Shown here in pieces: positions 650 to 6,834 of a stretch of 64,000 nt of DNA. This stretch comes from Planctomycetales bacterium 10988. GTDB lineage: Bacteria > Planctomycetota > Planctomycetia > Pirellulales > Pb10988. The notes under the pieces are model-generated. The model was not told the origin of the DNA and searched no databases. It saw only the letters and a program-made list of their open reading frames with translations. A program made the position numbers and the translations under genes. Every line of letters starts with the position of its first letter. Within the stretch, counting starts at the first letter, position 1. The stretch spans positions 3,438,709 to 3,502,708 of the forward strand of contig CP043547.1 of NCBI GenBank assembly GCA_009664345.1, read 5' to 3'.

Positions 650-2368
650 TTAGTTTACCGCATCATCCTTAGGGACTTGCTCGAAGGCCGCTTGCAGCTG
701 CTTGCCTTTTTCAGGTTGAACCATCGAGATATAGGCAATCATCCCTTGCACCCAGCCTGCGAAATGGGGATGATTTTCTCGATTTTGGGCAGCGAGTCCG
801 GTCTTTTGGGCTTGATGCAAGATCGCACGGAGACGGCGAACGACCGGGCGAGGAACCCCAGGGCGATCATTGACGACGATCCCGGTAACCTGTTGCCGTT
901 GCGAAGGCCGTTGAATCCGTGTCTTCTGCTCATTCAAAGCAAAAGTCTCTTCATCGATGATCGCGAGGACTTGCGAGAGCAGATAGCCGTAATTGGGTTG
1001 TTTCCCATTCTCTCCGGCACTTCCCTTCCAAGAGAAGGTCAAGTCATCGGCATAACGGCTATAAGTCCAGCCGATTTTTTGAGACATGCCGGTCAGTCGA
1101 GCGTCGAGTTTTCTGGCGATCAGATTGCTCAGCGCCGGGCTGGTACAGGCCCCTTGTGGCAAAGACCGCGGCCCTTCGGCCACATAATAGCGTTTGCCGC
1201 TTAGCTCGATCGTTCGTCTCGGGGCTTCGGTACAAAGCAAGGCGAGAATCGTGGCGATTGCCGGCGAATAGCCGAACGATTCGAACAGCCCTCGCACACG
1301 CGGAAACGTGATCGAGGGGAAAAAGTCTGCTAAATCCATCTGTGCGACGAGGTCACAACCGACATGCAGGTTCGCATGAGTCACGGTACTTCGGCCGGGT
1401 ACAAAACCATGTGCCGCTTCATGCGTCGGCAGCTTTTGCAAGATGTTCGTCAAAACCCATTGCTGCGTTTTGGACAAGGCTTGATGGGGGGCCGAGAGAA
1501 TGCGACTTCCACCACTTTTTTTGGGGATTTCAAATTGCAGATAGTGAGTCCGTTCGGCGGCCTCATTATGAAAAGTGAGCCACCGGAGTTGCGGGATTTC
1601 GACCTCGAGGATCTTGGCCAACTCATCGGGATGATCTAGAAACGGCAGTTGTAGCTGATCTAACTGTTCACGATTGCTTTGGCGATTGGCCAGACCTTGC
1701 GACACCCCACGACCGAGATAAACAATGTCCGTTTTTTTGGCGAGTTCGATCTCGGCCTGACGGACGGCCGCTCGCCGCGCGGCTTCCTTCTTCTTTTCTT
1801 CCTTGATTTTTTGCTTGTCTTGCTCTTCCGCAGCGACCTGTTGCCGGGCAAGTTCCAAAGCATGCTCCCGCAATGGACGCAGTTCGTCCATCTCAGCCCC
1901 AACGCGATGGATCTCTTCAAGTTCCTCCGCAGTAATCAACCCATGGCCGATCATGGCCCGATCGATCAAGCTGGTACGTGGATTTTCCAAGGAAGGAATG
2001 CGGTCTCGCCGATCCCAACCGCCACTCATTCGCCAAGAAATATTGGAAGCTTTCGCCTCGCTCTTAGCCTCATCCAGTGAAAGCGGAGCCAATTCCCCCA
2101 TGGCCAGGGCATCCCCAGAAACAGAGCTAACCGGTGGTTTCGGGGGTTCTTCCTGCTCCGTTATTTTGACAGCGCGGGCGGTCTTCGAGACCCTTGCCGG
2201 GGGATCGGCCACTTTACTTGGTTTCAGAGTTTCGGTCGTGGGAGAAGGTTGCGGCTCAGGGGTGGCGACCGGATTGGGGTCTTCGGGCGATTTGCGGGGC
2301 GGGATGGGACGTTGCTCTTCAGGAGACGCTGAACCGAAAAGTTTCTGTAGCCAATCGAAGAAGCTCAT
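650..2368 (-). CDS. Retron-type reverse transcriptase with long N-terminal extension
   Basis: A 572-residue RNA-directed DNA polymerase. The catalytic core spans about residues 240-560: a fingers segment IPKKSGGSRI (281-290), HANLH (331-335, the retron NAxxH-type motif), motif A MDLADFF with D345, LPQGACTSP (403-411), the YADD box at 439-442 giving D441 and D442, and VTG (494-496), also typical of retrons. The first 240 residues are an extension: an amphipathic start, a Pro-rich linker (about 14-80), a conserved-looking helical part, a Lys/Glu/Ala coiled coil (about 165-212) and GRGVS (219-223). From memory this extension recalls the myxobacterial Mx162-like retron enzymes. I chose ATG 2368; an upstream in-frame GTG at 2458 would run into the ncRNA end. 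Two ncRNA units lie 75 nt and further upstream on the same strand. No separate effector is fused. The expected role is msDNA synthesis, probably for phage defence. Confidence 0.9.
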   Translation of the reverse strand: MSFFDWLQKLFGSASPEEQRPIPPRKSPEDPNPVATPEPQPSPTTETLKPSKVADPPARVSKTARAVKITEQEEPPKPPVSSVSGDALAMGELAPLSLDEAKSEAKASNISWRMSGGWDRRDRIPSLENPRTSLIDRAMIGHGLITAEELEEIHRVGAEMDELRPLREHALELARQQVAAEEQDKQKIKEEKKKEAARRAAVRQAEIELAKKTDIVYLGRGVSQGLANRQSNREQLDQLQLPFLDHPDELAKILEVEIPQLRWLTFHNEAAERTHYLQFEIPKKSGGSRILSAPHQALSKTQQWVLTNILQKLPTHEAAHGFVPGRSTVTHANLHVGCDLVAQMDLADFFPSITFPRVRGLFESFGYSPAIATILALLCTEAPRRTIELSGKRYYVAEGPRSLPQGACTSPALSNLIARKLDARLTGMSQKIGWTYSRYADDLTFSWKGSAGENGKQPNYGYLLSQVLAIIDEETFALNEQKTRIQRPSQRQQVTGIVVNDRPGVPRPVVRRLRAILHQAQKTGLAAQNRENHPHFAGWVQGMIAYISMVQPEKGKQLQAAFEQVPKDDAVN

Positions 2369-2442: not shown

Positions 2443-2659
2443 GCGAAGAGAGAAGCACAACTAACTTCTGACTAAGGACCGAAGTCGTTCACTCACCGGG
2501 ACCGGTACTATTCTATCCCGGAGAGCCTTGGCTCGTGTCGGTCCATATAGAATAGTACTGGTCCCGGATCACGAACAACGGCTTTGGGGAAGCATGGAGA
2601 GTCATGAGCGACCACGGCGGAACGCCGCAGCAAATCGTCTTAGTTCTGTCTCTCTTCGC
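2443..2659 (-). ncRNA. Retron ncRNA (msr-msd), unit 1, next to the RT gene
   Basis: A 217-nt structured unit read on the minus strand, ending 75 nt before the RT start. Its ends are a perfect 11-bp inverted repeat (2443-2453 and 2649-2659), the position and form of retron a1/a2. Read 5' to 3' on the minus strand it has a GC-rich hairpin (CGGCG/CGCCG, 2615-2627), then a 7-bp stem with one G-U pair (2573-2579 with 2484-2490). That stem encloses a long hairpin with 20-nt arms (2498-2517, 2546-2565) and a 28-nt loop holding a small GAGCC/GGCTC stem-loop (2523-2534). The layout matches msr followed by msd. The branching G and the msd ends cannot be fixed from sequence alone. Confidence 0.8.
2498..2565 (-). 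repeat. Variable msd-like hairpin of ncRNA unit 1
   Basis: On the + strand the arms are GGGACCGGTACTATTCTATC (2498-2517) and TATAGAATAGTACTGGTCCC (2546-2565). They pair at 18 of 20 positions, with one internal A-C mismatch and a mismatch at the loop end. The 28-nt loop between them (2518-2545) is the same in unit 2. In a retron this would be the reverse-transcribed stem. Confidence 0.85.
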
Positions 2660-2810
2660 TTGACTGTTTTTATCGCCTTTCTTTCTGGAATGCCGCGAAA
2701 ATGACTTTGCTTGAAGCCATAAACGCCACATCTCAGTGAGTTCAAATCGTTTCTTACACTTCTCTGTCCATCGCTCCACTTCACGCCGGACGATGAAAAA
2801 GGCAGGCAAA
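2660..2810. other. Spacer between the two retron ncRNA units
   Basis: These 151 bp share no evident similarity with the flanks of either unit. No convincing gene is present; a minus-strand open frame crosses it but also runs through the ncRNA stems, so it is not credible. Read on the minus strand the spacer has a TTGAAC box and, 18 nt on, TATGGC, a weak possible promoter for unit 1. The second box is a poor match, so the call is tentative. Confidence 0.4.
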
Positions 2811-3021
2811 GCGAAGAGGGAACTAACTTCTAGCAAAGGACCAAAGTCGTTCACTCACCGACACCCCGTCTAGAGGGATCCGGAGAGCCTTGGCTCGTGT
2901 CGGTCCACTCCCTCTAGACGGGGTGTCGGATCACGAACAACGGCTTTGGGGAAGCATGGAAAGTCATGAGCGACCACGGCGGAACGCCGCAGCAAATCGT
3001 CTTAGTTCTATCTCTCTTCGC
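2811..3021 (-). ncRNA. Retron ncRNA (msr-msd), unit 2, upstream tandem copy
   Basis: A second 211-nt unit, same strand, 368 nt from the first counting left end to left end. The right flank (2928-3021) matches unit 1 at 92 of 94 positions and the 28-nt loop (2880-2907) is identical. The left flank is slightly diverged and lacks 6 nt. The end repeat pairs at 10 of 11 positions (2811-2821 with 3011-3021). The GC hairpin recurs at 2977-2989. The central 20-nt arms (2860-2879, 2908-2927) are a different sequence from unit 1 but complementary to each other at 19 of 20. Both units look intact, so neither is an obvious relic. Confidence 0.78.
2860..2927 (-). repeat. Variable msd-like hairpin of ncRNA unit 2
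   Basis: On the + strand the arms are GACACCCCGTCTAGAGGGAT (2860-2879) and CTCCCTCTAGACGGGGTGTC (2908-2927). They pair at 19 of 20 positions, failing only at the loop end. Aligned to the unit 1 arms, about 7 of 20 positions agree, close to chance, whereas the sequence immediately outside and the loop inside are conserved. Confidence 0.85.
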
Positions 3022-3046
3022 CTGTCTGTATTCGCTTCGGTTTCTT

Positions 3047-3136: not shown

Positions 3137-4848
3137 TAATTCACGGAGTTGCTCCAATTGACGAGTCGATCGTACCAATCGGAGGCCTTTTCATCCGTCG
3201 TTTGTTTCTTCTGAAGATTGCGGGCCCGCAAGGCCAGCATATGTTGACAAGGCCCGTTCTTCAAAGCGTACTGTTTATAGTGTCGGCAAGTGCATTTGCC
3301 CCGTTTGATCCTGCCTTCGCCATCGAGCAAGACTTCGGTTTCGCACCCGGCGATCTTCGCAGTGAGCAAAAGTTGCTCGGAATCGACTTCTTGCGTCGAA
3401 AGGTTTTTCACTAAACCCTTCGCCAACAACTTTCGCGACGCGACAAGTTCCGGGGATTCCGGCCCCATCTCCCGCTCTCCGAGTGCTTCGGACATCACTT
3501 GTCGCCAGCGATAGACCCCGGACGCTAGATCATAAATGACCTGACCAGTGTGCGCCAAGTAGCTAAGACCTGCTAAACATTCTGCTCGATCAATGCCAGT
3601 GGCGGTGGCAAGTTCTTCGAGGGAAACCGCTTGGTTTTGACGAATATGTTGAGCAATCCGGTCTCGGGCTGCCTTTTGCAAGTCAACCGGCGGGGCCAAC
3701 AAATCAATGGCCGAACCGCGAGTCCAATCGTTCGTTGTCCACCCGGAAAGCCCCATCGTCAGCCGCATCTCACCCAACTGAGCCACCCAAAAACTCGGTA
3801 AGCCCGTCCCTAAAAGATAGACATCCACATGATCGAGCAGCGGCAATAGCCGCGAAAGGGCCAAGAGACGACGGCGTCCCCAAATGCGAACCGGCTCTTG
3901 CGAGGGTCCATCGTAACGAGAGTGCCGCGAGACAATTCGTTCTTCCCAAGGTTCCAGCACCAGTTGCGGAAATTCTCCTGGCAGCAATTCGAATCGCAAT
4001 GCCCGAGGACTGGTTTTTGCTTTATTTCGTTTCAGGAAAGCCATTAAAGAATAGACGGCTTCCCGACTCAGCCTGACTTGTTTGGTGGGAAGTCCCATGG
4101 CGGCCTGAATTTGCATAAAGCCACGTAACCAACCGGGGGGCAGATCGATTTTTTCTTCGCGATAATCGGGATGGCCTTCGGTGGCGACTCCAAAACCGGC
4201 GGGATCGACCTTCAGTCGGGTTTCGCGATAGCTCCGCAACGACTGAAAGTAATGATAAAGGTCCCAAGAATAATCGACATTGGTCGTTCCGAACTGCATT
4301 TCATCCGAACGCCCAAAGCCGGCTTCTCGCTCGACGGTCAAACAGCCGTAACTCGATTCATCCGCCGAGAAACATTCAAAGAAGACGACCTCATCGCTGA
4401 CAGTCACCACCGGATCGCAAGGCATGATCTGCCGCCACAATTCAGGATCATGCTTCCAAAGATATGTGTTGAATTTACTTCGAGCTTGCCAATACTGTTT
4501 GTTTTTCGCCTCAAATAACTTTTCAAAATCCTTGGAAATCTCTTTCTCTTGCTTCTGTTGAATTTCTTTCCAATTGGCTTGGCTGAGTTGTCGAATGCGT
4601 TGTGCGCGGAGATTGTCTTGCTCTTTTTTCCAAGCGAAATAGGCGGTTTTGTCGCGAGGTTGAAAGCGGAGATCGCTAATGACAATATCATGCAAGGCGG
4701 AGATCGCTTCGCGAAACCGGAGAGGATGCTTCAAAGCGGCATCGAAGGCGACCGGATCGCGTTGCAGATTGGGCATCAACTGCATCACATTGCCGCCGCC
4801 GGTATTGGTCAACCGGCTTTTGCCCAAATAGGCCAGAGAAAGATTCAT
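3136..4848 (-). CDS. SWIM zinc-finger protein
   Basis: A 570-residue protein of unknown function with a C-terminal SWIM finger, C519-x-C521-x12-C534-x-H536, a zinc module used for DNA or protein binding. The N-terminal 500 residues have no fold I recognise; residues about 40-120 are charged and helical, and residues about 455-495 (the stretch ending in GVYRWRQ) look like a winged-helix-type module with a strand pair. The start was set at ATG 4848 because its ATGA overlaps the stop of the HEAT-like gene upstream, the usual coupling in this genome; the longer open frame runs antisense-like through that gene. It lies 114 bp upstream of the retron ncRNA array on the same strand, so co-transcription with the retron is possible but unproven. 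Confidence 0.75.
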   Translation of the reverse strand: MNLSLAYLGKSRLTNTGGGNVMQLMPNLQRDPVAFDAALKHPLRFREAISALHDIVISDLRFQPRDKTAYFAWKKEQDNLRAQRIRQLSQANWKEIQQKQEKEISKDFEKLFEAKNKQYWQARSKFNTYLWKHDPELWRQIMPCDPVVTVSDEVVFFECFSADESSYGCLTVEREAGFGRSDEMQFGTTNVDYSWDLYHYFQSLRSYRETRLKVDPAGFGVATEGHPDYREEKIDLPPGWLRGFMQIQAAMGLPTKQVRLSREAVYSLMAFLKRNKAKTSPRALRFELLPGEFPQLVLEPWEERIVSRHSRYDGPSQEPVRIWGRRRLLALSRLLPLLDHVDVYLLGTGLPSFWVAQLGEMRLTMGLSGWTTNDWTRGSAIDLLAPPVDLQKAARDRIAQHIRQNQAVSLEELATATGIDRAECLAGLSYLAHTGQVIYDLASGVYRWRQVMSEALGEREMGPESPELVASRKLLAKGLVKNLSTQEVDSEQLLLTAKIAGCETEVLLDGEGRIKRGKCTCRHYKQYALKNGPCQHMLALRARNLQKKQTTDEKASDWYDRLVNWSNSVN

Positions 4849-6620
4849 GAGGATTCCTCCGTCGCCGTGAGTGCCGGATCGAGATTGAGTTCGGGAAAGA
4901 GTTCTTGCACCATCGGTTCCAGCTTGGGACGTCTGGCCAGAACATGCATGACCGTGGAGAGGGCCGCCCGTTGTTCCGGCTTTCGCAAACTTCGCAGGGA
5001 GATGGCCAGAATCGGCAAGAGTTCCTCGGCCCGGTTCGGTTCTTGAATGAGTACCTGTTGCAATTGCCGAAGGGCTTTGAGCTTTTGTCGGCCGCCGCGA
5101 TGAATCCCCAGCAGGATGGCACTCCACATTGGGGAAAGTTGGTCGGTGCCCAGCCCCGGTAAGTCTTCCCGTTTTTCCAAGAGATCGATTAAACGCAAGC
5201 GGGTCATGTCGTAGGGCGATTCCAACAGCCGCACCCACAGCAGCGGGTCCGTGTAAGCCGGGGAATCGGTGGTCAGAAAATTCCAAGCCGCTTTGCGAGG
5301 CCCTTCTTCCAGGCTATCGAAGAAACTCAACACCGAATCGTGATGATAGGTTTCTGGGGAATTGAACTTTTGCAAGGCGAAGTCGGCCAATTCTTCGTTG
5401 ATGGCATCACATTTTGAATTCGCCAGCCGAGAGAGTGATTGCCGCAATGCATCGGTATCCCATTGTTTTTGTTGAAGATAGGAAAATCCAACACGGGCGA
5501 CCGGCGGCAACGTGGACATCGCCAAATCGAGGGACTGCTCGTGGCTGACCGTTTCCGGCGGGTGTTGGGTAATCAACTTTGGGCAAAGAACCGAGAGGGC
5601 CGTCAAATTTTTGGTCGATAACAATTGCAACCAAATCTCGAAGGAAAGTTGCTCCTTAGCGATTCTTGCTTCCAACCCTTGTAAAGCCAGCTCTTGAACA
5701 TCTTCAGAAGGATGTTGAAAGAGTTCGAGCAAGGTAGCAATCGAAAAATTCTCGAAGTAGCCGGGGTGTTCTTGCTGAATCATATCCCGTGCCCAGACGC
5801 GAATGGTCTTGGAGGGAGCGGATTTTAAAAGTTCAAACAATTCATCGGCAGCCTCGGAACTTTTCCAAACTTCCGGAAAACTTGGAGCGGGCTTCAAGTC
5901 GGCGAGTTGGTGGCCGGGGAGAAGATTGATCCCGCGGGGGTGAAACTTGAAACCAGGAAATCCTCGATAACAAATATGCATCAAGCTCCAACTATCAAGC
6001 AGAGCGATGCCGTCGTTGAGGTCGCTGTCTTGGTATTGCAGCAAGGCATGCAGGGCGTACTTTTTATATTCCGCAGGATTTTGATATCCCAGGTGGCGGA
6101 AATATCGCCATGCTCGGCGGCGAAGATAGCGCTTGGTCACCCCGAGAAAAAGCTTCGCCCCTTCCGGCTGATAGGTATAATAAACCGACTTGTTCCTATA
6201 ACTATAGGTAGGTTTTTTCGTCGGAGTCAGTCCGCCTGCCGGATTTTGCAGAACTTCGTAACTGATATTACGTTGGTTTTGGCGGTCCCATTCATACTGG
6301 GTTCGAAGTTTACGGCGACTGAGGCGATCGAAGACACTCAAAAACGTGGCCATCAACTCGCGATCATCGCTCTTTTCCGCATGTTTGAAAAGTTGTTTGA
6401 CAACGACATTATGATTGAGTCGGTCGAGCGGAAAACTTAAATAGTGGAGAATTTGTTGTTGTGCCCAGGGACGAGGGTCTTTTACCCACTGCCGCACCAG
6501 CCCCGATAGGGCATTGCTATCATAAAGCTCACGGATTTCAGAAACGAAACGAGCATCTTCATTCGCAAAATATTCCCGTGCGAGTGTGATCGAACCGTTC
6601 TCTTGAATATATTGTGCCAT
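4845..6620 (-). CDS. HEAT-repeat-like protein coupled to the SWIM gene
   Basis: A 591-residue, mostly helical protein. Repeated helix pairs such as the one around ELFQHPSEDVQELALQGLEA indicate HEAT/ARM-like repeats, mainly in the central and C-terminal part. The N-terminal third has a Tyr- and Arg-rich region of unknown nature. No signal peptide, membrane segment or enzyme motif was seen. ATG 6620 is preferred to the longer in-frame start at 6668 because MAQYIQENGS begins the regular part. Its TGA overlaps the ATG of the SWIM gene (4845-4848), so both are made from one mRNA and may form a complex. Function unknown; a scaffold role is an inference from HEAT architecture. Confidence 0.65.
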   Translation of the reverse strand: MAQYIQENGSITLAREYFANEDARFVSEIRELYDSNALSGLVRQWVKDPRPWAQQQILHYLSFPLDRLNHNVVVKQLFKHAEKSDDRELMATFLSVFDRLSRRKLRTQYEWDRQNQRNISYEVLQNPAGGLTPTKKPTYSYRNKSVYYTYQPEGAKLFLGVTKRYLRRRAWRYFRHLGYQNPAEYKKYALHALLQYQDSDLNDGIALLDSWSLMHICYRGFPGFKFHPRGINLLPGHQLADLKPAPSFPEVWKSSEAADELFELLKSAPSKTIRVWARDMIQQEHPGYFENFSIATLLELFQHPSEDVQELALQGLEARIAKEQLSFEIWLQLLSTKNLTALSVLCPKLITQHPPETVSHEQSLDLAMSTLPPVARVGFSYLQQKQWDTDALRQSLSRLANSKCDAINEELADFALQKFNSPETYHHDSVLSFFDSLEEGPRKAAWNFLTTDSPAYTDPLLWVRLLESPYDMTRLRLIDLLEKREDLPGLGTDQLSPMWSAILLGIHRGGRQKLKALRQLQQVLIQEPNRAEELLPILAISLRSLRKPEQRAALSTVMHVLARRPKLEPMVQELFPELNLDPALTATEESS

Positions 6621-6834
6621 GGCCGTGGGTTGCCTCGGTTTGGAATCATTGATGGACAAAAGTCGCACCGATTCCTTGAGAGTTTACCATACCGGGAAAG
6701 CATGCGTAAATCGTCTCAACGATCGATTTGTCCGATTATTCCAAGGAGGCAATGTGGCGTCAAGACCCAATCTGTACAAGTTTTTATATTGCGAAATAAT
6801 CTAGTTTTTTATAGACGCAACTAGTCAACATTGT

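Follow-up and report, generated by a model that had tools for sequence, protein, structure and literature searches.

Two tandem ncRNAs with different paired stems at a planctomycete type XIII retron, and a CRISPR spacer that matches one folded stem

Retrons are usually pictured as one reverse transcriptase (RT) with one template. The locus described here lies in a 64,000-nucleotide stretch of the chromosome of Planctomycetales bacterium 10988 (the window) and carries two ncRNAs beside one RT gene; they share a scaffold and differ in their central stem. The reading that we favor, with a probability of about 0.75, is that of a type XIII retron in which one RT is served by several ncRNA templates, the central stem being a hypervariable module that is always paired.

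The locus was identified as a type XIII retron with PADLOC, whose RT_XIII, SWIM_XIII and HEAT-ARM_XIII profiles were all matched by genes of the window:

653..2368, minus strand: type XIII retron reverse transcriptase (PADLOC RT_XIII, E=2e-161; Pfam RVT_1)
3139..4851, minus strand: SWIM zinc-finger protein of the type XIII retron (PADLOC SWIM_XIII, E=4e-189)
4848..6668, minus strand: HEAT/ARM repeat protein of the type XIII retron (PADLOC HEAT-ARM_XIII, E=3e-174)

RT_XIII was the best of 52 families for the RT among the PADLOC profiles. The protein has 572 aa with a probable ATG start (MSFFDWLQ...) that is kept in relatives, and its stop codon is at 650-652. The HEAT/ARM protein was modeled as an alpha-solenoid (pLDDT 88). 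Residues 35-373 of the SWIM protein have a predicted sliding-clamp fold (AlphaFold2 model, pLDDT 81), and the model aligned with PCNA over 232 residues (Z 19.1, 2.8 A rmsd); this PCNA-like part precedes the C-terminal SWIM part. We know of no report of a sliding-clamp fold in the SWIM protein of type XIII retrons. A protein with the predicted fold may hold a DNA duplex such as the stem of an msDNA. A second retron-like RT of another kind (34% identical), with inverted repeats upstream, is present in the same genome (L034; C1:384227-385174).

Plus-strand positions 2443-3021 contain two repeats, 362 nt apart. The first-pass annotation had described them as two tandem retron ncRNAs on one scaffold, and both are indeed present, on the minus strand between the RT and SWIM genes and upstream of the RT, with cores at 2471-2634 and 2833-2996. 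On that strand, which is also the direction of the neighboring genes, each unit is bounded by ends complementary to each other and contains an msr-like hairpin and a long stem, with a loop that is conserved. Two covariance models are used below: R1, built from the two window units alone, and R2, a second model run over the genomes of the class. The parts of the units are as follows:

2443..2676, minus strand: proximal retron ncRNA unit including the terminal a1/a2 duplex; core matched by R1 (built from it) and R2
2496..2516, minus strand: proximal unit, 3' arm of the variable stem (repeat comparison)
2547..2567, minus strand: proximal unit, 5' arm of the variable stem, CCGGGACCAGTACTATTCTAT on the RNA strand
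2612..2630, minus strand: proximal unit, msr-like hairpin, CTGCGGCG TTC CGCCGTGG, identical in both units
2805..3030, minus strand: distal retron ncRNA unit including the terminal a1/a2 duplex; outer limits approximate
2858..2878, minus strand: distal unit, 3' arm of the variable stem; msDNA (plus strand) CCGACACCCCGTCTAGAGGGA; CRISPR spacer match
2879..2908, minus strand: distal unit, loop, 28 nt of which are common to the proximal unit
2909..2929, minus strand: distal unit, 5' arm of the variable stem (repeat comparison; CRISPR spacer)
2930..2936, minus strand: distal unit, flank, reading ATCACGA in the sense of the msDNA; one end of the CRISPR spacer is its reverse complement, TCGTGAT
2974..2992, minus strand: distal unit, msr-like hairpin (fold)

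Both units have the layout of a retron ncRNA, that is, a position adjacent to the RT gene, complementary a1/a2 ends, an msr hairpin and an msd stem-loop. Pairing of a1 with a2 exceeded that of swapped flanks (p=0.01 for each unit), and folding was more stable than that of shuffled sequences (z -7.8 for the proximal and -6.5 for the distal unit). Where a priming guanosine in a TAGC-like motif would be expected after a1, there is a conserved GAGAC, AAGAC in the window; CAGA and GAGC variants of the retron priming motif are known. No Rfam family reached threshold for the window units, and a search around them for a sigma-70 promoter or a terminator found none. The identical 28-nt loop noted earlier is real (2518-2545 and 2880-2907). 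Complementarity of the arms within each unit also held, but the figures of 18/20 and 19/20 did not: the stems are 21 bp each, paired at 20 of 21 positions in the proximal unit (one A.C) and at all 21 in the distal one. Similarly, agreement between the arms of the two units is low as claimed, at 9 of 21 positions in register rather than about 7 of 20. In a gapless alignment of 164 columns (A6), differences fell in 24 of the 42 stem columns compared to 6 of the 122 others (Fisher p=2e-12). Twelve of the 21 stem pairs differ between the units, 11 of them fully compensated with standard pairs in both, and shifting the partner by 1-3 columns reduced pairing of the window stems from 98% to 36-48%.

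Multiple units are not peculiar to the window. R1 had matches at type XIII loci in Planctomycetota, Verrucomicrobiota, Myxococcota, Proteobacteria, Bacteroidota, Bacillota (Hazenella) and a Helarchaeota archaeon; the covariance model was built from these units and may have missed distant members. R2 gave 71 positive genomes among 398 of the class, with at least two matches in 26 and at least three in 12; these counts include a few fragments, such as one G087 unit that is apparently split. One ncRNA per RT is the usual form of a retron, though not a strict definition of it, and the window has two. The array form is not unique: of the genomes positive in the class, roughly one in three had at least two matches. 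Within the window's own order 12 genomes were positive and only the window genome had two units; three relatives of that order (L031, L032 and L033) have one unit each, in which the scaffold is that of the window and the stem is a different one, paired throughout. Beyond the class, units were mostly single, and the Bacillota isolate Hazenella has two in tandem at its type XIII locus. The units have the orientation of the genes and occupy the gap between ARM and SWIM, that between SWIM and RT, or both, with one to three per locus. A genome-wide scan with the single window RT as query found nothing, and an alignment (A2) was needed. Multiple type XIII ncRNAs went unmentioned in the matches of a full-text literature search, the scope of which lay outside the primary retron classification. 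In a Helarchaeota archaeon genome bin, the type XIII RT is followed on its 3' side by three ncRNA units in tandem (L070:9266-9942). Divergent units of about 190 nt occur at L282:7372-7840 and L288:7349-7537, in genomes whose SWIM_XIII-like genes belong to a second group; at L282 there are two in tandem and their stems differ.

Comparison of units showed how the stems change. Mean identity in 31 within-locus pairs was 0.88 for the scaffold and 0.57-0.58 for the arms. Length (about 20-28 bp in planctomycete units) and pairing of the stem are constrained, and its sequence is not. Orthologous slots could be compared in L226, L231 and L239, three relatives that belong to one genus and whose RTs are 93-97% identical. 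Scaffold identity at slots 1 and 3 was about 0.97-0.99 and four-fold sites were 0.76-0.90 identical, while the arms were identical in one pair at slot 1 and in another pair at slot 2 and otherwise 0.47-0.67 identical. In L226 and L239, for example, the arms were 0.47-0.55 identical at two slots and 1.00 at one, with the RT at 0.97 (aa) and four-fold sites at 0.90. In the tandem copies of Hazenella the scaffold is identical and the arms 0.72 identical, with compensated changes, and about 370 nt of the repeat are nearly identical apart from these changes. Because arm identity is either about 50% or 100% beside four-fold sites at 76-90% and scaffolds at 97-99%, the arms are, as judged from these alignments, replaced in jumps and on both sides together. 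This supports the first-pass suggestion that both arms were exchanged at once. Recombination within the conserved flanks would be the simplest route by which whole hairpins move as cassettes, because arm, loop and arm form one contiguous segment of about 75 nt between those flanks. At L260:2285-4491, the stems of two units in different slots are almost the same, a single compensated base pair setting them apart, and one slot seems to have been copied to the other recently. Palindromic operators were considered as an identity for the arms and rejected: the excess of internal dyad symmetry is modest (z 3.1 relative to shuffles, 4.9 relative to chimeras) and has no fixed center.

Units also occur away from any RT. 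Eleven stretches (L269-L278 and L280) had units with no RT, SWIM or ARM match nearby, mostly in about 7 kb examined on each side; L280 is a 5.8 kb contig with its unit 0.8 kb from the end. The neighbors examined were housekeeping genes, e.g. recJ, tatD, ubiA and floA. Scaffolds were intact except at L275, where the unit is split. Of the 11 units tested, 7 kept their own a1/a2 pairing (p<=0.05 relative to swapped flanks). The RT-less unit of L275 (6632-8031) seems to be divided, its two parts lying about 1.1 kb from each other, as an insertion would leave them. The clearest case of one RT with many templates is G076, a genome in one contig of 6.7 Mb with a single retron-like RT match and seven units spread over four places (the retron locus with two, a tandem of three and two single units). 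These seven have one genome-specific scaffold and seven different stems, and in their gapless alignment both bases have changed in 22 of 25 stem pairs, with 98.3% of cells paired. Further retron RTs are present in genus g85, so use in trans by one RT is cleanest in G076 only. The earlier proposal that one RT may make several msDNAs gains support from G076 and from a CRISPR spacer that matches the distal unit of the window.

A 19-mer of the distal stem has one further occurrence in the genome, and this lies within a CRISPR array (C1:5580627-5582960) whose 33 repeats are perfect. The spacer (35 nt, C1:5581238-5581272) reads TCGTGAT-CCGACACCCCGTCTAGAGGGA-TCCGGAG. Base for base, it is the 21-bp stem with 7 nt added at each end: on one side the reverse complement of those that follow one arm in the 3' direction, on the other side those that follow the second arm in the 3' direction; TCCGGAG is the first 7 nt of the distal loop in msDNA sense. 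It has the sense of the DNA copy and corresponds to the folded hairpin with 7-nt 3' overhangs in msDNA polarity. It is contiguous on neither chromosomal strand, the longest contiguous stretch being 28 nt, and the 3'-overhang ends expected from an RNA hairpin or from the other DNA strand are different (TCACTCA and GTGGACC). Among 32 spacers it is the sole convincing match elsewhere in the 6.65 Mb chromosome, the next being a 19-nt match with E=0.19. Cas2 and a Cas4-Cas1 fusion are encoded beside the array, and the host CRISPR system scores best as type I-MYXAN (Cas1, Cas5, Cmx8). Cas1-Cas2 prefers duplexes of 22-23 bp with 5-7 nt 3' overhangs (PMC10504553), and the 21-bp stem with its 7-nt 3' overhangs is close to that geometry. 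Since the spacer is the folded hairpin with both 3' overhangs in msDNA polarity, the match strongly suggests that msDNA of the distal unit existed in vivo and that its folded stem was captured by the host CRISPR system. The capture is one event: stems were tested in about 50 other genomes and no other was found. No spacer from the proximal unit was detected, its stem giving only a 3-mismatch match in its own genome. Searches with the stems of nine genomes gave self matches and a few weak matches only, as did 32 of the 56 stems of a second batch against 42 genomes. A weak spacer match in G076 was discarded, as it looks like a protein-coding gene. About 400 bp away from the spacer-bearing array there is an RT gene (L295:4483-5715, equal to C1:5578982-5580214) whose RT match is distant and group II-like.

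Neutral drift would account for a stem that is paired yet free in sequence if the RT and its partner proteins needed only a duplex of a given length; the stem would then drift with compensation and the duplication would be functionless. The predicted clamp fold of the SWIM protein, which would read a duplex and not its sequence, agrees with this. What such drift fails to give is the tempo, since turnover is faster than at four-fold sites: arms stand at random level in genomes whose four-fold sites and scaffolds remain 76-90% and 97-99% identical, they are fully identical at a neighboring slot, indicating jumps, and those of Hazenella differ though the surrounding repeat of about 370 nt is nearly identical. 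We consider drift unlikely. The hairpins might instead be some other structured element, e.g. a terminator or a mobile repeat, and some copies do lie far from RT genes beside housekeeping genes; yet the same strand and position beside RT_XIII and SWIM_XIII from Planctomycetota to Bacillota and an archaeon, the a1/a2 and msr layout, and a search that found no terminator-like site make that scarcely credible.

The spacer bears on the remaining two alternatives. It could have come from a hairpin on single-stranded chromosomal DNA, during replication or as a cruciform, and would then be uninformative on msDNA; the plus strand has the same sequence as the msDNA. This is improbable, as a sole convincing chromosomal match among 32 spacers in 6.65 Mb implies that the hairpin was probably enriched, and the polarity fits msDNA and neither the RNA nor the other strand. 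That the distal unit alone left a spacer, and that the proximal stem has an A.C mismatch, would also fit a locus in which one unit is used and the other is a decaying copy. Against this, scaffold, a1/a2 and stem are kept in both units and relatives commonly have two or three intact ones, and we think it quite improbable. Supply of the RT with more than one template remains the reading that we adopt.

Under that reading, all templates would keep the scaffold that the RT requires (complementarity of a1 and a2, the msr-like hairpin, and a conserved loop and base of the stem), with the central stem of 20-28 bp as the hypervariable, always paired module. From a template the RT would make msDNA, the stem of which forms double-stranded DNA on folding, the SWIM protein with its predicted clamp fold may keep that stem as a duplex, and whole hairpins would be swapped as cassettes through recombination in the conserved flanks. 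Phage detection by retrons is described as acting through msDNA (PMC13405049). If the stem is the part of the msDNA met by phage factors, stem diversity would be selected, and several, often-changed stems could widen the range of triggers or evade phage countermeasures; we infer that the stem may act as a variable phage sensor. Copies of viral DNA were rejected as an origin of the stems: in IMG/VR the two window stems had only 4 and 2 exactly matching stretches of 16-17 nt, whose contexts were unrelated. These look like chance and lend no direct support to a role of the stem sequence in phage sensing. Three viral contigs (L289, L291 and L292) share an 18-nt match, ACACCCCGTCTAGAGGGA, with the distal stem and have similar surrounding sequence, probably also by chance. 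We would put at even odds the wider proposal that a single RT acts on a genome-wide repertoire of cis and trans templates, with stem cassettes under diversifying selection, as a variable innate-immune sensor array, and that CRISPR adaptation naturally records retron msDNA.

If so, the templates have become numerous and dispersed from their RT while only a single module differs among them, in the manner of variable immune receptors, and this one-module variation is a handle on the question of the purpose of the msDNA stem. The spacer would be a natural record of retron DNA that was folded and present in cells and able to feed a second immune system. An RT that accepts many trans templates with free stems of 20-28 bp would also be useful as a tool.

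Several known systems can be compared to this locus. The type I-G Cas4/1 adaptation system (PMC10504553) likewise has a Cas4-Cas1 fusion and a duplex substrate of about 22 bp with 7-nt 3' overhangs, but the host system here scores best as type I-MYXAN. In the Retro-Cascorder, as described in PMC11394691, a retron-made DNA duplex is likewise integrated as a CRISPR spacer; that system is engineered and uses two hybridized ssDNAs, whereas here the genome is natural and the substrate would be a single folded hairpin. Retron-Mxa1 (Mx162) and other myxobacterial retrons have an RT with an extended N-terminus, as does the window RT (PMC6868368). The Myxococcus RT found in our search also had RT_XIII as its best match, and R1 was below threshold at that locus. 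Unlike the window, Retron-Mxa1 is described with one msr-msd beside its RT. Type XIII retrons as defined in PADLOC have all three proteins in the order ARM-SWIM-RT with the ncRNA in intergenic gaps, as here; the window differs by having two ncRNAs with different stems instead of one, and its relatives by having up to three units per locus plus units in trans.
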